Source of the DNA: Providencia rettgeri | GTDB lineage: Bacteria; Pseudomonadota; Gammaproteobacteria; Enterobacterales; Enterobacteriaceae | DNA length: 64,000 nt | Direction: 5' to 3' | Assembly (NCBI RefSeq): GCF_013255915.1 | Contig: NZ_CP053896.1 | Coordinates: forward strand, 3,844,001 to 3,908,000 | In this document: piece by piece, positions 51,300 to 62,783 of the stretch | How positions within the stretch are numbered: the first letter of the stretch is position 1 | Layout of the letters: every line of letters begins with the position of its first letter | Program-made: the position numbers and the translations under genes | Notes under the pieces: generated by a model | What the model was told of the DNA's origin: nothing | The model's input: only the letters and a program-made list of their open reading frames with translations | Databases searched by the model: none

Positions 51300-52013
51300 A
51301 TGACATTACAACCTGCATATAAGCAAATTCAGTCTTACATTTTACGCAGTATTGATTTAGGTATTTTTAAGCCTGAAACACAAATACCGACAGAATTAGA
51401 GCTATGTGCTCAATTCAATGTAAGCCGTATGACCGTGAATAAAGCCATTTCAGAGTTAAGTCAAAAAGGGATCCTACATCGTATTGCGGGCAAAGGCACA
51501 TTTGTCGCCACTCAAAAACATGAGCTTCCCGTAACAAAAGCGTTTGATATTTTTGATGAGATCTCAACAAGTGGTAATAAATATAGCGGCCACCAGCTGC
51601 AACTAAAAATTATTCCCGCATCAGCAGAAATTGCACTACAGCTCGGGATTAGTGAAGGAAGTGATGTGGGCTACTGTAAAGTACTACATTTTGAAAACGA
51701 TATTCCTTTAATGTTAGAAGAACGCTATGTTAACCACGCCATTGTGCCCGACTTTGTTAAGCAAAAATATGGTGACACTGAAACTCCTAGCGGTTATTTG
51801 CAACGCCATTTTCCTGTCAGTGAAATGGAACATACCATTGAAGCTGCATTAGCCACAAAATCTATTGCTCAATCATTATCAATTAAAGAAAACTCACCTT
51901 GCTTACAACTTAGCCGTCGCACTTGGACAGGTAACACTCTAATTAGCTATGTTAATATGATCACAGCTGGCTCTCGTTACAAATTAAAATTACATTCTCG
52001 AATTGAGAATTAA
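51300..52013 (+). CDS. hutC: HutC, GntR-family histidine-utilisation repressor
   Basis: A 237-residue transcription factor. The winged helix at about 5-75 has TELELCAQFNVSRMTVNKAI and GILHRIAGKGTFVA; the UTRA effector domain follows (about 90-232) with the HutC hallmarks MLEERYVN, FPVSEMEHTIEA and SRRTWTGNTLISY. HutC proteins are released from DNA by urocanate. It lies convergent to the downstream end of the hutU-etf series, whose hutU upstream region carries TGTATATACA-like operators. A plausible promoter region of 276 nt precedes it. Confidence 0.92.
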   Translation: MTLQPAYKQIQSYILRSIDLGIFKPETQIPTELELCAQFNVSRMTVNKAISELSQKGILHRIAGKGTFVATQKHELPVTKAFDIFDEISTSGNKYSGHQLQLKIIPASAEIALQLGISEGSDVGYCKVLHFENDIPLMLEERYVNHAIVPDFVKQKYGDTETPSGYLQRHFPVSEMEHTIEAALATKSIAQSLSIKENSPCLQLSRRTWTGNTLISYVNMITAGSRYKLKLHSRIEN

Positions 52014-52021
52014 TGCAAAAA

Positions 52022-52047
52022 TAAAAAAATGGGGCAAAATTGCCCCA
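52022..52047 (-). terminator. Terminator between hutC and the ETF-QO gene
   Basis: 8-bp stem TGGGGCAA (52030-52037) / TTGCCCCA (52040-52047); on the minus strand TTTTTTT follows, so it ends the hutU-etf transcript. For hutC on the plus strand it has no T-run but may still shield against collision. Confidence 0.8.
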
Positions 52048-52102
52048 AAGCGACTGATAAAACAAAAAATATCAAGCACAACTACATCACAATAAATTCG
52101 TT

Positions 52103-53785
52103 TTACATTCCTTGATAAATAGGCCCTTCCCCTCCTTGGGGAGCAGTCCAGGTGATATTTTGTAACGGATCTTTAATGTCACAAGCCTTACAATGCAGGC
52201 AGTTTTGCGCATTAATTTGCAGTTTTTCCTCACTTTTATTCCCTACAATTTCATAAACTCCCGCGGGGCAATAACGCGTCTCGGGTGCAGCATATTTCAT
52301 TAAATTAACTTGGATAGGGACATTAATATCAGCCAGTTTTAAATGGCAAGGTTGTTCCTCTTCATGGTTAGTATTCGATAAAAATACGGAAGAAGACTTA
52401 TCAAACGTTAATTTACCGTCGGGTTTTGGGTAATCTATCGGTGTAAAACCCTTGGCTTCCTTTATTCCTTCATGATCCGATTGTTTTAATTTCAACGTCC
52501 ACGGGGTACGCCCCTTAAATAACAGTTGTTCTGCACCAAATAGCATTGAACCAATCACTAACCCTTTTTTCATATAGGGCTTAAAATTGCGTGTTTGATA
52601 AAGCTCTTGATATAACCAGCTCTCTTCAAATAGCTGGCGAAATTGCTTTTTAAACTGTAAATAGTCAACCATTCCATTCTGGTTAGCACTGAACCAAGCT
52701 TCTGCTGCTAATAACCCACTTTTCACCGCACAATGGGTGCCTTTAATTCGGGCTGCATTAAGAAAACCTGCATCATCACCAATTAACACACCTCCGGGAA
52801 AGCTTAGTTCAGGTAACGCGGCTAACCCACCCGCCACCATCGTTCTAGCACCATAGCTGATCCGTTCTCCACCCGATAAGAAATCACTAAAAGCAGGATG
52901 GGTTTTTAAGCGTTGAAACTCATCAAACGGTGATAAATACGGATTTTCATAATTTAACCCGACCACCAAACCCACTGCGACTAAGTTATCCCCATAATGA
53001 TAAGCAAAGCCGCCACCATAGGTGTGGTTATCTAGCGGCCAGCCAACGGAATGGACAACTAACCCTGCTTGATGTTGCTCTTTTGGAATTTGCCAAATTT
53101 CCTTGATCCCCAAACCATAGGTTTGTTTACCGCTCTCTGTGGCTAAATTAAAATGATTTATCAATTGCTTACCTAGCTGACCACGGCATCCTTCCGCAAA
53201 AAAGGTCATTTTTGCCAGTAAATTCATACCCGGTTGGTACATCTGTGTTGGGTTGCCTAATTTATCAAGCCCCATATCTCCAGTTGTGACGCCTATCACT
53301 TGGTTTTTATCATCAAATAACACCTCTGTGGCAGCAAAACCGGCAAAAACATCAACACCTAATTCTTCTGCCTCCACGGCTAGTACAGCACTTATCTCCC
53401 CTAAGCTACCAATGAAATTACCATTGTTTTTCAAACAGTTTGGCAATAAAGAGAGGGGTAAATGACTCGCTTTATTTTCTTTTAGCCATAAAAAACGGTC
53501 ATGACTTACAGGTGTTAAAGAAGCCGAAACCTTTTGCTGCCAATCTGGTAGCAATTCATCGAGAGCACGTGGGTCTATCACTGCACCAGATAAAATATGA
53601 GCTCCTATCTGTGCACCTTTATCAATTAAACAAACCGAAATTTCTGTTCCTTTCTTTGCCGCTAGCTGCTTTAAACGTATTGCTGCAGATAACCCCGCGG
53701 GCCCACCACCGACAATCAGGACATCGAACTCCATCGATTCCCGCTCGGGAGCCTCGTTTATCTTATCAATCTTGTCGATAGCCAT
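52103..53785 (-). CDS. Electron transfer flavoprotein-ubiquinone oxidoreductase
   Basis: Membrane-associated flavo/Fe-S enzyme that re-oxidises ETF with ubiquinone. It has 560 residues, full length for the one-chain ETF-QO and unlike the split FixC/FixX. FAD-binding VLIVGGGPAGLSAAIRL lies at about 23-39, followed by SGAVIDPRAL; the C-terminal 4Fe-4S ligands are in CPAGVYEI and NCLHCKACDIKDP. It is the last gene of the series, 11 nt after etfA. Its presence implies that the upstream acyl-CoA dehydrogenase works in the oxidative direction under respiration. Confidence 0.95.
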   Translation of the reverse strand: MAIDKIDKINEAPERESMEFDVLIVGGGPAGLSAAIRLKQLAAKKGTEISVCLIDKGAQIGAHILSGAVIDPRALDELLPDWQQKVSASLTPVSHDRFLWLKENKASHLPLSLLPNCLKNNGNFIGSLGEISAVLAVEAEELGVDVFAGFAATEVLFDDKNQVIGVTTGDMGLDKLGNPTQMYQPGMNLLAKMTFFAEGCRGQLGKQLINHFNLATESGKQTYGLGIKEIWQIPKEQHQAGLVVHSVGWPLDNHTYGGGFAYHYGDNLVAVGLVVGLNYENPYLSPFDEFQRLKTHPAFSDFLSGGERISYGARTMVAGGLAALPELSFPGGVLIGDDAGFLNAARIKGTHCAVKSGLLAAEAWFSANQNGMVDYLQFKKQFRQLFEESWLYQELYQTRNFKPYMKKGLVIGSMLFGAEQLLFKGRTPWTLKLKQSDHEGIKEAKGFTPIDYPKPDGKLTFDKSSSVFLSNTNHEEEQPCHLKLADINVPIQVNLMKYAAPETRYCPAGVYEIVGNKSEEKLQINAQNCLHCKACDIKDPLQNITWTAPQGGEGPIYQGM

Positions 53786-53796
53786 TCGTCCACCTC

Positions 53797-54747
53797 TTAC
53801 GCTAATGCTTTGTCAAATTCAGGTAAGATCTCAAACAGATCGCCAACAATGCCATAATCCGCAACTTGGAAAATCGGCGCCTCAGGATCACTATTGATAG
53901 CAACGATCACTTTGCTTTCTTTCATTCCTGCAACATGCTGAATTGCCCCCGAAATTCCTACAGCTATGTACAAATCAGGTGCGACAATTTTCCCTGTTTG
54001 TCCTACTTGGTAGTCATTTGGCACAAAACCAGCGTCTACCGCAGCACGTGAAGCCCCAACCGCAGCCCCTAGCTTGTCAGCTATCGTTTCCAATAACGCA
54101 AAATTTTCACCTGAGCTCAAGCCTCTCCCGCCTGAAATAACCACTTTTGCAGAGCTCAATTCCGCACGGCTAACTTGAGTTAACGATTGGCTTTTTAATT
54201 GACTACGCAGCGGTATATCGGCAAGGGAAACCTTCTCTATTTCAGCACTATTTTGCGTTTCATATCCCCCTGAAAATGCCGAACTACGCACCGTAATGAC
54301 CACTTTCTGGCCATTGTTTTGTACCGTTGCTAACGCATTCCCTGCATAAATAGGTCTAACAAAAGTTTGTGAATCAATAACTTGAGTAATATCTGAAACT
54401 TGTGCGATCCCTAACTTTGCAGCAACCCGTGGGGCAATATTTTTACCAAATGTCGTCGCTGGAAACAGTAAATGAGTATATTCTTCTGCAATATTCACCA
54501 CCGCATGAGCCATCGGTTCTGCAAGTTGGTTTTTAAGGTTATCTGATTGTATTTCTAGGACTTTACTCACGCCTTTTATACTCGCAGCTAGCTGAGCGAC
54601 CAATTCTGTCTCACTTCCTGCAACTAATAAGTGCAAATGACCACCTGCGGTGAGAAGTTGTTTTGCAGCGTTAATACTATGATAAGTAGAGGTTTTTATT
54701 GTTTGATTATCATGCTCGACAACCACTAATACAGATATTTGGCTCAT
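53797..54747 (-). CDS. etfA: Electron transfer flavoprotein alpha subunit
   Basis: FAD-binding ETF subunit, 316 residues. The C-terminal FAD domain is clear: VISGGRGLSSGENF, LGAAVGASRAAVDAGF, VGQTGKIVAPDLYIAVGISG and the ending AINSDPEAPIFQVADYGIVGD. Together with EtfB it shuttles electrons from the acyl-CoA dehydrogenase to ETF-QO. It starts 15 nt after etfB. Confidence 0.96.
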   Translation of the reverse strand: MSQISVLVVVEHDNQTIKTSTYHSINAAKQLLTAGGHLHLLVAGSETELVAQLAASIKGVSKVLEIQSDNLKNQLAEPMAHAVVNIAEEYTHLLFPATTFGKNIAPRVAAKLGIAQVSDITQVIDSQTFVRPIYAGNALATVQNNGQKVVITVRSSAFSGGYETQNSAEIEKVSLADIPLRSQLKSQSLTQVSRAELSSAKVVISGGRGLSSGENFALLETIADKLGAAVGASRAAVDAGFVPNDYQVGQTGKIVAPDLYIAVGISGAIQHVAGMKESKVIVAINSDPEAPIFQVADYGIVGDLFEILPEFDKALA

Positions 54748-54762
54748 AGGTATTTTCCTCGA

Positions 54763-55518
54763 TTAAATCACTTCTTTCGCTTGTAATGCACTGACTAGCT
54801 CTGTCGCACTGCTTAGCAATGTACATTGCCCCGCTCGTTTTTTGGGTTCTGAGACACTAAGTGTTTTAATTTGCCCTAATGGGGTAAAATCCATATCAGT
54901 AATATCGATAATATCTAACGTTTTTTTCTTCGCTTTCATGATATTAGGTAAAGTTGCATAACGAGGTTCATTGAGCCGTAAGTCTGTTGTGATGACCGCT
55001 GGCAATGGCATTTCTAACGTTTCTAAACCACCGTCAATTTCCCTCGTAACTTGCAGTGATTGCCCTTCAAGCTTAACTTGAGAAGCAAATGTCGCTTGCG
55101 GGTAATCCAATAATGCGCTGAGCATTTGGCCTATTTGATTGCAATCATCATCAATAGCTTGTTTGCCTAATAAAATAAGATCTGGCTGTTCCCTTTCTAC
55201 GATTTGTTGAAGTAAACGCGCTATATCCAGTGGCTCTAGTGTTAACTCCCCAGATCTTTGTACTAAAATCCCACGATCAGCGCCAATCGCCATCGCACTA
55301 CGTAATGTTTCTTGATAACCAATGTCACCGATGGAAACCACAATCACTTCTGTTGCTTTTCCCGCCTCTTTTAAACGCACAGCTTCTTCGACGGCAATTT
55401 CATCAAATGGATTAATTGCCATTTTGACATTCGCCAATTCAACCCCTGAACCATCGGCTTTTACTCTTATTTTGACGTTATGGTCTATCACTCGCTTCAC
55501 TGCGACTAAAATTTTCAT
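54763..55518 (-). CDS. etfB: Electron transfer flavoprotein beta subunit
   Basis: AMP-binding ETF subunit, 251 residues. It has the signature [14 protein letters not shown] at the start, [18 protein letters not shown], and [26 protein letters not shown]. The recognition loop ([32 protein letters not shown] region) docks to partner dehydrogenases. It lies 152 nt after the permease gene; a possible weak internal promoter could sit in that gap. Confidence 0.96.
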
Positions 55519-55670
55519 AGCAACTCCTATCCCAATTCTTCAACGATTGGTGGGTATGGTAATGTTCTAAAACCGTTTTTTAGGTTGAGAGAAACCGTAA
55601 CAGTGATAGTTACACTGCTACTGGCTATCTCAATTTTTACGCTTTTTAATGCTAGTTTTTTATGAAATGG

Positions 55671-57110
55671 TTATTTTGTTGTCGGTAATATCAACCGATC
55701 TGCGACTGACATAGGCCATTTTTTAATCGCAACATAGTAAAGAATACTTGTTGCTACTAAGCCAACAATCCATGAAATATCGACACCACCGAGTTTTTCG
55801 ACTAAAGGCCCGGTATAAAAACCTGTTGATATAAATGGTAATTGTATTAATACACCGGCAATGTAAGTGAATATCCCGACTTTATTCCAACGCCCATAGC
55901 GGCCATTTGGGTTTGCAAGTTCGGGAACGTCGTAGCGACCTTTAGTGACCCAATAGTAGTCAACTAAATTAATTGCACTCCAAGGGGTAAAGAATGCAAG
56001 TAAAAACAATAAGAAAGCAGAGAAGAGTTTTAAAAATGAGTGCTGGCCCGCTAACCCAAGTAGTGTTGAAAAACTGACCATTAGAATAATAAAGAACAAC
56101 CTTTGGCCACGAGAAATTTGGCTTTTCCCACGGAAGCCACACCAAATCGCAGCCATAGACATAAAGCTACCATATGCATTCAATGCAGTTATTGTCACTT
56201 TCCCATAGAAAATACTGATGTATAGCAACGCCGCGATTAAACCTGTGCTGCCTAAGCCCACAATATACGAGACTTCATTACCGGCAAACTTATTGCCAGC
56301 AAGCGCTGCGGCAAAAACCCCTAAAATCATTGAGGCTTGCGTACCAATTACTGTGCCTGAACCCACAGCCAAGAAGGCTTTAATTGTCGGGGTTTTAGTC
56401 GGTAAATAACGAGAATAGTCCGCAACATAAGGCCCAAATGCAATTTGCCAAGAAGCAGACAATGACATCGCTAATAAAAAGTTCGTCCAGCTAAAATGGC
56501 GGTTTTCCAGTAATACCGAAACATCATTCATATAAAATAGACGGAAAAATAGATAAAAGAACGTAATCACGCCGATAACGCTCGCTACTTTCCCTAAAAT
56601 ATGAATGATGCGATAACCACAAATTGTAATGCCGATAATCACCACACCAAAAATAATAATTCCAACCCAATCAGTCACATGTAACAACTGACCAACCGCT
56701 TGCCCTGCCAGCACGGTACCACTAGCAGAAAACCCGACATACATCATGCAAACTAATAAAATAGGGATGACGGCACCGTATACGCCAAACTGTACACGAC
56801 TCGAGATCATTTGTGGTAACCCCAATTTCGGCCCTTGCACCGCATGCAAGGCCATCACCGCCCCACCTAATAATTGGCCAATAAACAAGCCAATTAATGA
56901 CCAGAATACATCTCCGCCAAGCACGACTGCCAAGGCCCCCGTTACAATTGCCGTTATTTGCAAATTAGAACCGAACCAAAGTGTGAATTGGCTCGATAAA
57001 GTGCCATGGCGCTCGGACTCTGGAATGTAATCGATGGAACGCGCTTCGATTAAAGGTACATTCTCCTGCCGGTTTTTTTGCCCTGTAGCGATGTCGTTTG
57101 AAACTGTCAT
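55671..57110 (-). CDS. NCS1-family permease, candidate importer of urocanate or imidazole propionate
   Basis: A 479-residue transporter with about 12 membrane helices, of the nucleobase/cytosine-hydantoin (NCS1) family. The motifs are TLWFGSNLQITAIVTGALAV, GLPQMISSRVQFGVYGAVIP and SASWQIAFGPYVADYSRYLP. NCS1 carriers import flat N-heterocycles; Mhp1 takes hydantoins, an imidazolidine ring. The position among hutU, acyl-CoA dehydrogenase and etf genes suggests an imidazole carboxylate substrate (inference). The 275-nt gap to the dehydrogenase holds TGTAAGGTACA (57185-57195), a palindrome loosely like the HutC boxes. Confidence 0.85.
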   Translation of the reverse strand: MTVSNDIATGQKNRQENVPLIEARSIDYIPESERHGTLSSQFTLWFGSNLQITAIVTGALAVVLGGDVFWSLIGLFIGQLLGGAVMALHAVQGPKLGLPQMISSRVQFGVYGAVIPILLVCMMYVGFSASGTVLAGQAVGQLLHVTDWVGIIIFGVVIIGITICGYRIIHILGKVASVIGVITFFYLFFRLFYMNDVSVLLENRHFSWTNFLLAMSLSASWQIAFGPYVADYSRYLPTKTPTIKAFLAVGSGTVIGTQASMILGVFAAALAGNKFAGNEVSYIVGLGSTGLIAALLYISIFYGKVTITALNAYGSFMSMAAIWCGFRGKSQISRGQRLFFIILMVSFSTLLGLAGQHSFLKLFSAFLLFLLAFFTPWSAINLVDYYWVTKGRYDVPELANPNGRYGRWNKVGIFTYIAGVLIQLPFISTGFYTGPLVEKLGGVDISWIVGLVATSILYYVAIKKWPMSVADRLILPTTK

Positions 57111-57385
57111 GGTAACTCCTCTTTAAGCAAGGCTGGCTTAAAGAATGAACCAATTAATCGTAATGGAACCGCAATAACTACAGTTGTAAGGTACAGTTAT
57201 TAAGCATTACGCTGGGTGATGTTTTATCTGTTATTCACCCTAAATAACTAATTGAAATACATTCTTAAACCTGATTGTTGTTGTGTTTTTAATTCCATGA
57301 TCCTGTTGTCAGGTAGTGCTTCCTATGGTGCTCCATAAACCAGTAAACGCCTGTCCCGCTTACTCGGCTCAATACTTAAAATAAC

Positions 57386-58525
57386 TTAGTGGGCATCTAA
57401 AACGGCACGTGAAATAATAATTTTTTGTATTTCTGATGTGCCCTCAAAAATCCGTAAAATCCGTGCATCACGCACATAACGTTCAAGGGGAAGGTCACGA
57501 ATATAGCCGTAGCCGCCATGAAGCTGTAAAGCCGCATCCGTTACAAAACCCGCACACTCAGCAGCAAACAATTTCGCCGTAGCGGATTGCAAACTAAAAC
57601 GCTCCCCTGAATCACGTAATTCCGCAGCTTGCCAGGTCAACATACGAGCCGCCTCCAATTGCGTGTGCATATCCGCAATACGCCATTGAGTTCCTTGGTA
57701 TGCAGCTAAGGGTTTTTTACCAATTTGGCGTTCTTTTACCCAACCTAAAGCACTTTCCATCGCAGCCCGAGCAATACCGAGTGACGTTGCGGCCACTTCA
57801 ACACGCCCTTTATCTAAAACTTCCATGGCGGTGTGGAACCCTTTATTTTCCTCTCCCAGTAATGCCGATTCCGGTAGCCAACAATTCAGCGCTAATTCAT
57901 AAATCGTGCTACCCCTTAATCCCATGGTTTTTTCAGGTTGAGAAAATGCCACACCTTCAGTGCCTTTAGGGATCATAAATGCACTGATGCCACGGGCTCC
58001 CGCTTCAACATCGGTTTTAGCATATAACACAATAAAATCAGCCTCTTTGGCGTTTGTGATATAGTGTTTATTTCCTCGAATACGCCATCCGCCATTTTCA
58101 CGTACAGCCACAGTACGCATATCCGCAGGGTTAGAGCCCGCAGCCGGCTCAGTTAAGCCGAATGCACCTAATAATTCCCCAGCAGCGGCTTTTGGTAACC
58201 AATGATTTTTTTGCTCTTCTGTCCCACCAATTAAAATTGAATCTGTCGCCAAAAAATGCGCCGTTAGAGCCGATGACGTCGATGCACAAGCTGCTGCAAC
58301 CGCTTCCACGACCTTGCTCATCGCCACACTGCCAATACCAAAACCGCCATACTGTTCAGGTAAATTAATTCCCCAACAGCCCATTTCCCCTAACGCTTGT
58401 AAACTTTCAGCACAAAAGGTTTCGGTTTCATCGTATCTTTGTGCATTTGGCTGTAAAATGTCATGGCAAACTTTTTCTACCGCATCTACAACCGCTTGTT
58501 CCGTTTCATTAATATCAAAACTCAT
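57386..58525 (-). CDS. Acyl-CoA dehydrogenase in the HutC-linked cluster
   Basis: FAD enzyme of 379 residues, short-chain-type acyl-CoA dehydrogenase. It has FGLTEPAAGSNPADMRT (flavin site), the HGGYGYIRDLPLERYVRDAR motif and the catalytic base Glu361 in IFEGTSEIQ. The gene overlaps the CoA-transferase stop by 4 nt, so the pair are coupled: one makes a CoA thioester, the other desaturates (or reduces) it. The layout is like caiA-caiB for carnitine. In this hut context the best candidate reaction is imidazolepropionyl-CoA to urocanyl-CoA (inference). Confidence 0.93.
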   Translation of the reverse strand: MSFDINETEQAVVDAVEKVCHDILQPNAQRYDETETFCAESLQALGEMGCWGINLPEQYGGFGIGSVAMSKVVEAVAAACASTSSALTAHFLATDSILIGGTEEQKNHWLPKAAAGELLGAFGLTEPAAGSNPADMRTVAVRENGGWRIRGNKHYITNAKEADFIVLYAKTDVEAGARGISAFMIPKGTEGVAFSQPEKTMGLRGSTIYELALNCWLPESALLGEENKGFHTAMEVLDKGRVEVAATSLGIARAAMESALGWVKERQIGKKPLAAYQGTQWRIADMHTQLEAARMLTWQAAELRDSGERFSLQSATAKLFAAECAGFVTDAALQLHGGYGYIRDLPLERYVRDARILRIFEGTSEIQKIIISRAVLDAH

Positions 58526-59706
58526 TGCATCGTCTCCGCATTTTTAATTGTTGTTTTCGCTGGTTTATAAACTAAGTTTGCCTCACCTAATTTCGGGGCA
58601 CGGCGGGTCGAATGAGGTTTATTTCCATTAAAAAAAACCGGTTGAGAAACCAATGGTGTTCCTCCATCATTCAGGTACGTCAGTACTTTCCTCACTTCGG
58701 CATGTTCACTTTGTGTGGCTTGGTGCAAATTATGAATGGGTGAAGCAGGAACCCCCGCGTTTAATAATATGTCACATACCTCTTCAACCGTTTTTTGGCG
58801 TGTCCAACTTTCGATTTCTTTTCTAAGTTCAGCTTGATACTGCGTTCGGCTTGGGTCATCACCGTAGCGCGGGTCGTGGCATAACTGCGGTTTTTCCATA
58901 CATTCGCAAAAGCGTTGAAATAGCTTTTCACTCGCAATCGCGATAACGACTAAACCGTCTTTTGCTTGATAGGTATCAAATGGCGTGGATACTGGGTGGC
59001 GGTTCCCCACTAAGCTCGGGGCCTTATCATTTGCAAATAAGTTTGAAAGCCCAGTTAACTGCATGCTCAATAAGACATCTACCATCGCCACATCAATATA
59101 CTGTGCCGCTTCGCCATGACGCTCTCTCGCAAATAGCGCACTGCTTATCGCCCATGACGCAAACATCCCTGCACACACATCGCCAATTGACTCACCGCTA
59201 CGTGTTGGCCCTGTTTCTGGGAACCCCGTGACACTCATTAGGCCTGACATCGCTTGTGCCACAATGTCATAAGCCGGGTAACTGGCAAGTGGGCTGTTTT
59301 GTCCAAACCCTGAAATACTGGCGTAAATTAATTTAGGGTTGTGCTGCTTTAAGCTCTCAAAATCGATACCAAGTCGTTGAGTCACACCAGGGCGAAAGTT
59401 TTCAACCACCACATCACTTTCTTTGACTAATTGAAATAAAATTGCTCGGTCTTCATCCGCTTTAAGGTCTAATTCAATACTGCGTTTACCTCGGTTAATC
59501 AAACCGTAATAAACACTTTCACCATCAATAAATGGCCCTAAATGGCGGCTGTCATCACCGTGGTTGGGCACTTCAATTTTGATCACTTCAGCACCAAGAT
59601 CGGCCATCATACCGGTGCAATAAGGACCTGCTAACACACGGCTTAAGTCGATCACTTTGATCCCCGCCAGTGGCCCTTGTCTTTTCTGAGTTAACGCAGC
59701 ATTCAT
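58522..59706 (-). CDS. CaiB/BaiF-type (family III) CoA-transferase
   Basis: A 394-residue family III CoA-transferase. It begins LAGIKVIDLSRVLAGPYCTG and continues IKIEVPNHGDDSR, with the catalytic Asp176 in GESIGDVCAG, aligning with Asp169 of formyl-CoA transferase. Enzymes of this class move CoA between two carboxylic acids without free intermediates. Position between hutU (57-nt gap) and the acyl-CoA dehydrogenase (4-nt overlap) suggests exchange of CoA between an incoming imidazole acid and urocanyl-CoA. Confidence 0.93.
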   Translation of the reverse strand: MNAALTQKRQGPLAGIKVIDLSRVLAGPYCTGMMADLGAEVIKIEVPNHGDDSRHLGPFIDGESVYYGLINRGKRSIELDLKADEDRAILFQLVKESDVVVENFRPGVTQRLGIDFESLKQHNPKLIYASISGFGQNSPLASYPAYDIVAQAMSGLMSVTGFPETGPTRSGESIGDVCAGMFASWAISSALFARERHGEAAQYIDVAMVDVLLSMQLTGLSNLFANDKAPSLVGNRHPVSTPFDTYQAKDGLVVIAIASEKLFQRFCECMEKPQLCHDPRYGDDPSRTQYQAELRKEIESWTRQKTVEEVCDILLNAGVPASPIHNLHQATQSEHAEVRKVLTYLNDGGTPLVSQPVFFNGNKPHSTRRAPKLGEANLVYKPAKTTIKNAETMQ

Positions 59707-59763
59707 ACTGAATTCCTTATATTCCAGAAAGTTGCCGACCGATTAAGCAGCCGGCAAAGGACA

Positions 59764-61431
59764 TTACTTCACCATCGGCAAGTTCAAGCCTTGCTCTTTC
59801 GCACAGTTAATGGCGATGTCATAACCTGCATCTGCATGGCGCATAACGCCCGTTGCAGGGTCATTATGTAAAACGCGCGCTAAACGTTTATCAGCAGCGT
59901 CCGTTCCATCACATACAATGACGACGCCTGAATGCTGCGAGAAGCCCATGCCAACACCACCACCATGATGTAAACTGACCCATGTTGCCCCACCTGCGGT
60001 ATTTAACAGTGCGTTTAATAAAGGCCAGTCTGATACGGCATCAGAGCCATCTTTCATGGATTCCGTTTCACGGTGTGGACTCGCAACAGAGCCTGAATCT
60101 AAGTGATCACGACCGATGACAATAGGGCCTTTTAACTCACCACTTTTCACCATTTCGTTGAAAGCACGCCCTAATCTTTCTCTGTCTTTTAAACCGACCC
60201 AACAAATACGTGCAGGGAGCCCTTGGAATGCGATACGTTCACGTGCCATATCGAGCCAATTATGTAAGTGTTTGTCATCTGGTAATAATTCTTTTACTTT
60301 TTGGTCTGTTTTATAGATATCTTCTGGGTCACCGGATAACGCGACCCAACGGAATGGTCCAACACCTTCACAAAATAGTGGGCGAATATAAGCAGGAACA
60401 AAACCTGGGAAATCAAAGGCATTGCTAATTCCTTCATCTTTTGCCATTTGGCGAATATTGTTGCCGTAGTCAAAAGCTGCTGAGCCACGTTTTTGCATCG
60501 TTAGCATCGCATCTACTTGTACTGCCATGCTTTTTTTCGCAGCTTTGGTCACTTCAGCAGGGGCAGTTTGTTGTTTTTCACGCCATTGGGCGAGTGTCCA
60601 ACCCTGTGGTAAGTAGCCATGTACTGGGTCATGGGCACTCGTTTGATCGGTCACTGAATCAGGGGTGATATTGCGTTTCACCAATTCACTGTAAACATCA
60701 GCCGCATAACCTAATAGCCCAACAGAAACGGGTTGGCCATTGGCTTTGGCATCGTCGATATATTGCAATGCTTCATCAAGAGAAGTCGCTTTTTTGTCTA
60801 CATAACGGGTTCTTAGACGAAAATCGATACGGCTTTCATCGCACTCGACCGCTATCATGCTAAAACCTGCCATGGTTGCTGCTAATGGCTGTGCTCCTCC
60901 CATCCCTCCAAGGCCACCGGTTAAGATCCAGCGCCCTGCGGCGTTGCCATTAAAGTGCTGTTTAGCAAGCGAAACAAAGGTTTCATAGGTGCCTTGAACG
61001 ATCCCTTGAGAACCAATATAGATCCAAGAGCCGGCCGTCATTTGGCCATACATCATTAGGCCTTTGCGATCTAACTCATTAAAGTGATCCCAATTCGCCC
61101 AGTGAGGAACAATATTTGAGTTTGCGATCAACACGCGTGGGGCATCTGGATGGGTAGGGAACACACCAACAGGTTTACCTGATTGCACGAGTAATGTTTG
61201 GTCATCTTCCAATGTGGTCAGCACATCTAAAATTTTGTCATAACATTCCCAATCACGTGCTGCACGGCCGATACCGCCATAGACCACCAAGCTTTGAGGG
61301 TGCTCAGCAACATCTGGGTCTAAATTATTTTGGATCATGCGGTATACCGCTTCTGTCAGCCAGCTTTTACAGGTTTTCTCACTGCCACGTGGTGCGCGGA
61401 TCACTCGAGTTGAGTCAGTACGGTTTAACAT
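59764..61431 (-). CDS. hutU: Urocanate hydratase (urocanase)
   Basis: NAD-containing enzyme converting urocanate to 4-imidazolone-5-propanoate in histidine breakdown. It has 555 residues from the ATG at 61431 ([16 protein letters not shown]), preceded by AGGGG; an ATG six codons earlier is less likely. NAD-binding [14 protein letters not shown] and [19 protein letters not shown] are visible, and the catalytic Cys lies in the [10 protein letters not shown] region. It heads the minus-strand series. Histidase (hutH), hutI and hutG are not adjacent, which is unusual. Confidence 0.96.
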
Positions 61432-61626
61432 GGTTGTATCCCCTATCATCCATTTTTAACTAACATTAAATTAACAATTTTATTTATAATAATCTGCGAG
61501 ATACCCAGTTAGTGGTGATTCACGTGCGTCTTCAAACTAATTAATTGATTATAAATCAACAGATTATTTTTCTATCAACTTGCTCGATACTATCTATTCA
61601 TTGAGAGCGTTTATCGATGATTTAAA

Positions 61627-61636
61627 TATATATACA
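61627..61636. promoter_or_regulatory. HutC-like operator 1
   Basis: TATATATACA followed by TTTA, about 200 nt upstream of hutU. It differs from the TGTATATACA palindrome at one position. Confidence 0.55.
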
Positions 61637-61648
61637 TTTACTTCACAA

Positions 61649-61658
61649 AGTATATACA
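61649..61658. promoter_or_regulatory. HutC-like operator 2
   Basis: AGTATATACA followed by TTTA, 22 bp (two helical turns) from operator 1, which favours cooperative binding on one DNA face. The GT...AC arms typical of GntR/HutC sites are kept. Confidence 0.6.
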
Positions 61659-61749
61659 TTTAAATTTGAAATTTTGTAGGAAGTGTGAAGGTTGGAATAC
61701 GAGGGATGTTATACAACAACAAGTAGCTGTATGTTTCTAGAGAGAAAGT

Positions 61750-61759
61750 TGTATATACA
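61750..61759. promoter_or_regulatory. HutC-like operator 3
   Basis: A perfect palindrome TGTATATACA, the core known for HutC binding sites in other hut operons, followed by TTTG. It lies between hutU and the divergent orphan gene. The whole gap 61432-61928 (about 500 nt) is AT-rich; apart from the three boxes I could not fix promoters. Confidence 0.7.
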
Positions 61760-61928
61760 TTTGTTTTTATATATAGAAACAAGCAAATAACAAAATTGAG
61801 AGTCGCTTCACAGAACATTGTAACGATGTATAGAAGTAGATGCGCTATTTATTAGCTATTCACGCTTCTTGCAATTATTTCTTCTAAAAACAGGTTATTT
61901 TTCCTCCTGTTTAAAATCGGAGAATTTT

Positions 61929-62783
61929 ATGAGCATCGACATTACTAATTTTTTTAATCGGGTAAGAAATTATTTTATCCCTAACAGCAAGAGAAACCTT
62001 GATATCACAAAAATAAATAAAACTCAGTTATCACTTCCTGCTTCAAAATTTAATTCTATACCTAAAGTTATTAATACCGAAGAAGAGGCTATTCAGTTTG
62101 CTGAAACTCATTATTTCTTACCTGAAAATTTCATACATAGAAAAGGGTGTGATACCTCACTAAATAATTTAACAACAGATAATCAACGAGTTGAATTAAA
62201 AATCAAAAAAGATATAAATTCTTTTTTTAATTCAAAAATTAAAGATCACAGTGAGACATTAACAAAAGTAAACAATAATTTAATTCCCTCTAGTCAACCA
62301 ACAAAAAAACATTCATCCTTAAATCAAATTGGCCTTGATATACCAAGAATGAATATTTTTGTTAAAAATAAAGATAATAATCCAACTAAACTACAATCCA
62401 TAATTGATATTAATAAATACCTAGGAAAATTACCGCCTTCACATATATGCCATATTTGTAATATTGCAAATCAAGCCCATTTGGCAGAAGGCACTATTAA
62501 AGCCTCGGAAATGATAAGTAAAACCCAATCCGAATTTTTATTTCAAGATCATGGCAAATCATCAATCATGATTAATATTTTAGATAATAATAGCTATCAG
62601 GTAAAATCTGAAGGTTACTTTAATTTAATCAATACAAAAACTGGAAAAAAAGTTAATAATTCAGAGGTTATAGCAGAAACGACGACTCATTTTACATTTG
62701 ATGAACAGGATAAGTTAATTGCTGAAAAACAGGACAAGTTAACACTAAAAATAAAAATTGAAACGAACCCACCACAGCTATAA
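61929..62783 (+). CDS. Orphan AT-rich gene, possible secreted effector
   Basis: A 284-residue protein I do not recognise, from the ATG at 61929 (MSIDITNFFNRVRNYF) with CGGAG 7 nt upstream; 20 open codons before it have no ribosome site. It has no signal peptide or membrane segment and is rich in Asn, Ser, Lys and Ile. The N-terminal 150 residues are polar and probably flexible, while the C-terminal part (about 185-284) has the clearest structure: PPSHICHICNIANQAH, with a CxxC-like pair, then alternating beta-type segments. Base composition is lower in GC than its neighbours. A type III effector or other acquired protein is possible but unproven. Confidence 0.7.
   Translation: MSIDITNFFNRVRNYFIPNSKRNLDITKINKTQLSLPASKFNSIPKVINTEEEAIQFAETHYFLPENFIHRKGCDTSLNNLTTDNQRVELKIKKDINSFFNSKIKDHSETLTKVNNNLIPSSQPTKKHSSLNQIGLDIPRMNIFVKNKDNNPTKLQSIIDINKYLGKLPPSHICHICNIANQAHLAEGTIKASEMISKTQSEFLFQDHGKSSIMINILDNNSYQVKSEGYFNLINTKTGKKVNNSEVIAETTTHFTFDEQDKLIAEKQDKLTLKIKIETNPPQL

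Follow-up and report, generated by a model that had tools for sequence, protein, structure and literature searches.

The window analysed here is a 64,000-nucleotide piece of the chromosome of Providencia rettgeri, whose genome comprises 4,741,336 bases in 2 contigs. Within the window we examined a cluster of eight genes at 51300-61449, in which a second urocanate hydratase (urocanase) gene, hutU2, stands together with genes for a family III CoA-transferase, an acyl-CoA dehydrogenase, a permease, the two subunits of an electron-transfer flavoprotein (ETF), its ubiquinone oxidoreductase and a repressor of the HutC family. The original prediction, made from the sequence, had read this cluster as a route for the oxidation of imidazole propionate, and its gene order, strands and spacing were borne out by the coordinates of the open reading frames and by Pfam and NCBIfam searches. 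The genes and the putative operators in front of them are as follows (scores in bits, against model cut-offs where given).

51300..52013, + strand: hutC2, GntR/UTRA repressor of the HutC family (TIGR02018, 245.4 against 220)
52103..53785, - strand: ETF-ubiquinone oxidoreductase, ETF-QO (4Fe-4S and ubiquinone-binding domains; PF05187, 161.6; PF21162, 143.8)
53797..54747, - strand: etfA (PF01012, PF00766)
54763..55518, - strand: etfB (PF01012)
55671..57110, - strand: NCS1-type permease, proposed imidazole propionate importer (PF02133, 171.3 against 23.5)
57386..58525, - strand: acyl-CoA dehydrogenase, proposed imidazolepropionyl-CoA dehydrogenase (N-terminal, middle and C-terminal domains PF02771, PF02770 and PF00441)
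58522..59706, - strand: family III CoA-transferase, proposed urocanyl-CoA:imidazole propionate CoA-transferase (PF02515, 408.8 against 23.3)
59764..61449, - strand: hutU2, urocanate hydratase (TIGR01228, 980.4 against 375)
61627..61636, no strand: partial HutC-type operator copy, conserved in aligned Providencia leaders
61649..61658, no strand: partial HutC-type operator copy, conserved in the same leaders
61750..61759, no strand: predicted HutC-type operator, perfect copy TGTATATACA (motif search with the consensus TGTA-N2-TACA)

The hutU2 gene is followed after 57 nt by the CoA-transferase gene, which overlaps the acyl-CoA dehydrogenase gene by 4 nt. Gaps of 275 nt and 152 nt lie before and after the permease gene, etfB and etfA are 15 nt apart, and etfA and the ETF-QO gene 11 nt. 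At the far end of the cluster, hutC2 is convergent with the ETF-QO gene. According to Pfam, none of the eight genes encodes a thioesterase, and an Rfam scan of the window gave zero matches.

The residues expected of the assigned families are in place. HutU2 aligned over its residues 16-560 with the solved urocanase 1uwl, and Asp176 of the transferase, at the position of the catalytic Asp of family III CoA-transferases, aligned with an Asp in both YfdE (4hl6) and formyl-CoA transferase (10uh). The acyl-CoA dehydrogenase carries Glu361 within an EGTSE motif, the Glu of which is the catalytic residue in acyl-CoA dehydrogenases. More specific identities were tried and rejected: the dehydrogenase fell below the cut-off of the acryloyl-CoA reductase AcrC model (NF042972, 389.8 against 640), and membership in the carnitine enzymes CaiA/CaiB failed for both models (NF002885, 174.1 against 540; NF002914, 130.8 against 413). 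The permease was below the cut-off of TIGR00800 (105.8 against 353.1) and matched none of the PDB chains. Residues of the dehydrogenase were also compared between 85 cluster rows plus the window (some genomes entering twice) and 15 others, a comparison from which we drew no conclusion. Pairwise distances of the transferase, dehydrogenase and permease correlated with r of 0.895-0.929 (51 of 53 loci plus the window), which is compatible with co-inheritance, yet relatedness alone could yield such values.

Other hut genes and HutC-type operators

The genes hutH, hutI and hutG had been described as absent. This holds for the cluster and the window, where hutH and hutI gave no tblastn match and from which all three arginase-family (hutG-type) genes of the genome are absent, but not for the genome. 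A second hut locus, with the order hutI-hutC1-hutU1-hutH-permease, lies at C1:1829843-1837116 (its hutI and hutH were named from their translations and afterwards used as queries), and hutG lies in a third locus at C1:1682899-1683714 (TIGR01227, 303.4 bits against 229.15). The genome of the window holds a complete Hut gene set, with two urocanase-family copies, hutU1 and hutU2. HutC2 shares 38% identity with HutC1, and on a second HutC model, PRK14999, it scored 178.5, below the cut-off of 424.

The operator of Pseudomonas HutC is given as TGTA-N2-TACA (PMC12977541). By chance this pattern is expected 1.39 times in 64 kb, and thus its occurrence in the window would not by itself be significant; the genome-wide count is what makes it so. 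The pattern WTGTATATACAW has exactly three sites in the 4.74 Mb genome, located before hutI, hutU1 and hutU2 at 59 bp, 57 bp and 299 bp from the respective start codons, and the reversed pattern, used as a control, has one. The HutC-like operators of the original prediction are present before hutU2 as one perfect and two partial copies, and genome-wide the perfect pattern occurs only at hut genes. Both partial copies, which lie nearer hutU2, were conserved when the leader of the window was aligned with 19 further Providencia leaders, 20 in all.

We then surveyed other loci for TGTA-N2-TACA in the 450 bp that precede the first gene of the cluster. It was present in 18 of 20 other Providencia loci; one of the two misses, L043, has a broken frame that put the search at the wrong place. 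Outside Providencia, 34 loci had a transferase of at least 60% identity, and 16 of the 19 in which 1 kb or more precedes that gene had the pattern; the remaining 15, which have less than 300 bp there, yielded none and were left uncounted. At four loci (L076, L088, L089 and L094) the operator lies directly before the transferase gene, with no hutU in front. Thus, the transferase-dehydrogenase pair, besides the urocanase, can sit under a hut operator. The distance from the perfect operator to the start of the tblastn match was 324-361 bp in 18 Providencia loci and 65-195 bp in the 16 others. These predicted operators would place both hut loci of the genome under common control through HutC binding. 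Adjoining the operator region of the window is a frame of 304 amino acids (61869-62783), which matched nothing in Pfam, NCBIfam or PADLOC.

Conservation of the gene set

The transferase was full-length in 20 of 22 genomes of the same genus, at 84-97% identity, and the order of the eight genes was identical in all 19 that were inspected of these 20. One Providencia genome (G019) lacked any transferase and another (G009) had a broken copy. Two urocanase-family matches were found in 23 of the 24 genus genomes, that of the window included, and one in G019. The sole broken copy among the 22 is that of Providencia stuartii NCTC11800 (L043, L100), in which the hutU2, transferase and ETF-QO frames are interrupted; this could be real decay or an assembly error.

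Scanning GTDB species genomes with the transferase returned 182 related loci, of which the best 80 were analysed (the scan used exact short patterns and is not exhaustive). Transferases of at least 60% identity were encoded at 45 loci, namely 11 in Providencia, 30 in Pseudomonas, 2 in Citrobacter and 1 each in Wohlfahrtiimonas and Ignatzschineria. The dehydrogenase gene adjoined in all 45, a permease gene was present in 43, and 42 had at least one hut gene in the available stretch; the three loci with none had just 85, 158 and 258 bp of upstream sequence. Together with the 19 Providencia genomes, these counts confirm that the gene set is kept together elsewhere, one of the points on which the original prediction could have failed. 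Below 60% transferase identity, any hut gene was found in 5 of 35 loci. One of these five, from Ancylobacter (L099), was included through similarity to HutC; its regulator matches no NCBIfam model at E <= 1e-40 and so may be of another UTRA type.

The arrangement around the two enzymes varies. In Pseudomonas schmalbachii (L062) the order is hutF, hutC, an unnamed frame, hutH, hutU, transferase, dehydrogenase, NCS1 permease, hutI and hutG. In this species, as in P. panipatensis, hutU lies on one side of the transferase, dehydrogenase and permease genes and hutI-hutG on the other. Oceanobacillus polygoni (L095) has an AraC-type regulator, hutU, hutI, a hutG-like gene, the transferase (51% identity to that of the window), the dehydrogenase (40%), an SSF symporter, hutP and hutH. 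A Mesorhizobium plasmid carries hutC, an ABC transporter, the transferase (50%) and the dehydrogenase (54%). Since varied transporters and regulators surround the same two enzymes and hut genes, the link between these genes appears to be functional. Further genes lie beside hut genes at these loci: an FMN-dependent dehydrogenase family gene adjoins hutH in P. panipatensis (L072, 3745-5067), and an aminotransferase and a D-2-hydroxyacid dehydrogenase, which could handle imidazole pyruvate or lactate, follow hutH in Oceanobacillus (L095, 16068-18227).

The Mesorhizobium plasmid came from a tblastn search of plasmids at E <= 1e-100, which gave 20 records, all with transferases below 60% identity; three were examined, from Rhizobium, Agrobacterium and Mesorhizobium. 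The Mesorhizobium locus fits the oxidation of imidazole propionate. The Rhizobium and Agrobacterium plasmids were rejected as carriers, their cluster being a different one, with a HutH-like ammonia-lyase, a CoA-transferase (49-53%), a 3-hydroxyacyl-CoA dehydrogenase and an enoyl-CoA hydratase. This related cluster lies at L153 6407-10869, L154 6407-10872 and L044 5668-10068; it is accompanied on the plasmids (L153, L154) by UTRA-domain regulators and an ABC transporter, and resembles a CoA-dependent beta-oxidation route for an arylacrylate, possibly urocanate. In Bosea (L101, 2531-11134) the CoA-transferase (50%) and an acyl-CoA dehydrogenase (56%) occur together with a urocanase (62%) and with genes of the arginase and MmgE/PrpD families.

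Proposed oxidation of imidazole propionate and its alternatives

We propose that the cluster encodes a CoA-dependent, respiratory route by which imidazole propionate is oxidised to urocanate, a route controlled by HutC and feeding histidine catabolism, and we put the probability of this reading at about three in four. The earlier pathway proposal is supported by the conservation of the gene set, the count of WTGTATATACAW sites and the hut genes elsewhere in the genome, and also by two findings described below: the cluster holds the only ETF-QO in one genome of each of four genera, and a HutU2-type enzyme serves a canonical hut locus in Ignatzschineria. Urocanate is the substrate of HutU and the ligand of HutC, and acyl-CoA dehydrogenases introduce a 2,3-double bond. 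As HutU and HutC set urocanate as the product, its saturated partner, imidazole propionate, is the probable substrate. The permease would import imidazole propionate, and the family III transferase would charge it with CoA, the steady-state donor being urocanyl-CoA, from which urocanate would be freed; a thioesterase would be unneeded, since the transferase exchanges CoA between product and substrate. The dehydrogenase would form the 2,3-double bond of imidazolepropionyl-CoA, and the electrons would pass from it to EtfBA, ETF-QO and ubiquinone. HutU2 would hydrate the urocanate, while HutI and HutG from the other loci would complete the route to glutamate. Urocanate, perhaps along with imidazole propionate, would relieve HutC repression at both hut loci. 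Imidazole propionate was reportedly called a nonmetabolizable inducer in Aerobacter aerogenes in the title of a 1965 paper by Schlesinger and Magasanik; for this reason HutC may sense imidazole propionate directly, besides responding to urocanate. Substrate, CoA donor, permease cargo, direction and HutC binding are the parts of this scheme that we infer.

The first alternative is that the same enzymes convert a related imidazole acid, such as ring-methylated or thio-substituted imidazole propionate, or cis-urocanate via its CoA ester, into a product that resembles urocanate and is passed to HutU2. The identity of HutU2 to HutU1, 74%, is below the 86-88% of the HutU proteins in Pseudomonas clusters; the permease belongs to a broad family, and the choice of imidazole propionate is itself an argument from the product, all of which would leave room for another acid. 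However, the HutU2 score of 980.4 was obtained on the urocanase model, and HutU2 fell under the cut-offs for thiourocanate hydratase (NF058531, 713.4 against 880; NF058530, 693.5 against 930), an identity that we therefore rejected. Ignatzschineria moreover shows the two types of enzyme swapped: the HutU of its canonical hut locus is 84% identical to HutU2 and 76% to HutU1, and that of its cluster is 85% identical to HutU1 and 74% to HutU2. Because a HutU2-type enzyme serves a canonical hut locus there, HutU2 is most likely a true urocanase, and the swap speaks against a special substrate. We regard a related acid as unlikely, though it is the best placed of the alternatives.

In favour of the proposed oxidation, a urocanase-family gene was present in all nine transferase-bearing genomes checked. 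The cluster urocanase of P. guariconensis is the only one of its genome. The clusters of P. fragi and Wohlfahrtiimonas populi contain no hutU, and the single urocanase-family gene of each genome lies elsewhere, in a hut locus.

It is also conceivable that the pathway works in the opposite direction and disposes of electrons by converting urocanate to its CoA ester and reducing it to imidazole propionate. Clostridia make aryl-propionates with an acyl-CoA dehydrogenase and ETF (PMC9824871), and acryloyl-CoA reductase is the best NCBIfam match of our dehydrogenase, although below the cut-off. Against this, the cluster includes a full ETF-QO, and as this enzyme feeds ubiquinone, oxidation is the likely direction. 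In the genome of the window the cluster ETF-QO is the sole match, and a second ETF pair lies outside the cluster. The genomes examined from Citrobacter, Wohlfahrtiimonas and Ignatzschineria, one per genus, likewise have a single ETF-QO, located inside the cluster. P. fragi carries one copy and P. guariconensis two, all of them outside the cluster, and the cluster-free Providencia genome G019 has none. Furthermore, 30 of the 45 close loci belong to Pseudomonas, which are mostly respiratory bacteria, and the urocanase of the same unit would pull urocanate the opposite way. Reduction is accordingly improbable.

Less probable again is that the transferase and dehydrogenase, together with ETF, serve the metabolism of an ordinary short-chain acid, their position near hut genes being a matter of history. 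Sequence cannot reveal substrate specificity, and two loci of metagenome-assembled genomes (L096, L097) have the transferase-dehydrogenase pair (49-50% and 52-56% identity) with no hut gene in the available stretch. On the other hand, the pair stays with hut genes in five genera and does so with other transporters in Oceanobacillus and Mesorhizobium, and a HutC-type operator directly precedes the transferase in four loci. The least probable of all is that the CoA enzymes act downstream of HutU on imidazolone propionate and bypass HutI: the window cluster does lack hutI, but the gene is present in the same genome with the same operator and lies inside the cluster in L062, L072, L091 and L095.

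Several observations weigh against the oxidation of imidazole propionate, the hut-less loci L096 and L097 among them. The transferase and the dehydrogenase both scored below every characterised-model cut-off, the best being PRK11430 for the former (350.1 against 522) and AcrC for the latter. The operator was absent at L042 in Providencia and at L067, L091 and L092 among the 19 loci of other genera. The only urocanase-family gene of Wohlfahrtiimonas encodes a protein just 35-36% identical to HutU1 and HutU2, which makes its function less sure. The Oceanobacillus genome has no ETF-QO of the PF05187 type, and its hutG-like protein scored 208.1, below the hutG cut-off of 229.15. Finally, the P. 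guariconensis transferase matched its own genome alone among 369 class genomes at E <= 1e-120, and the trait is thus rare.

Relation to known systems and significance

The cluster shares with the Hut pathway a urocanase, a HutC-family repressor, the TGTA-N2-TACA operator and urocanate as an intermediate. The Hut pathway, however, is entered from histidine via HutH, whereas the cluster would be entered from the saturated acid through CoA chemistry and respiration. With the carnitine system, in which CaiA/CaiB and FixAB act on an acid/enoyl-CoA pair, it has in common a family III CoA-transferase, an acyl-CoA dehydrogenase and ETF; it differs in that no hydratase gene apart from hutU2 is present and a full ETF-QO replaces FixC and FixX. 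The clostridial formation of aryl-propionates includes a CoA-transferase and is reductive and fermentative. Its genes are described as fld genes, acdA and etfA-etfB (PMC9824871), and the likeness lies in an acyl-CoA dehydrogenase and ETF working on a 3-aryl-propionate/acrylate pair. The cluster, with its ETF-QO, should by contrast work in the oxidative direction. UrdA handles the same metabolite pair, urocanate and imidazole propionate, and to our knowledge uses no CoA. It is a flavoenzyme for which urocanate, as it is reduced, serves as the respiratory electron acceptor (PMC10882135), and the formation of imidazole propionate by UrdA is well described (PMC13320830).

In the literature searched, only the production of imidazole propionate has genes assigned. 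The accessible part of a 2025 review (PMC11872695) gave no genes for its bacterial degradation, and we found no earlier assignment in the literature searched, where most subscription papers were beyond reach. For urocanyl-CoA or imidazolepropionyl-CoA, the same literature gave nothing beyond a review matching 'imidazolyl propionate', and on the degradation of imidazole propionate it gave no paper. Coote and Hassall (1973) are said to have reported the degradation of imidazolylpropionate via urocanate in Pseudomonas testosteroni, with no genes assigned, and the conversion is therefore probably already known as physiology. The enzyme families are known as well; what seems new is the assignment of genes and the mechanism through CoA.

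Imidazole propionate, a metabolite of gut microbes, is studied for its links to impaired glucose metabolism and to cardiometabolic disease (PMC11872695 among the sources). At the gene level, we consider it more probable than not that a bacterial sink for it exists, in the form of a CoA-dependent respiratory dehydrogenation module that has combined with hut genes or hutC in three or more contexts, each with its own kind of transporter (NCS1 in Gammaproteobacteria, SSF in Oceanobacillus, ABC in Mesorhizobium). The module occurs in the majority of the Providencia species that we looked at and in some Citrobacter, and it would reverse the reaction by which gut bacteria with UrdA produce imidazole propionate. 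If true, this would provide a marker gene set for the removal of imidazole propionate, with which metagenomes could be scored for source and sink, a testable reason for differences in its level between carriers, and an enzyme pair for measuring or removing it. It could also explain how relatives could use imidazole propionate although one enteric bacterium is reported not to metabolise it.

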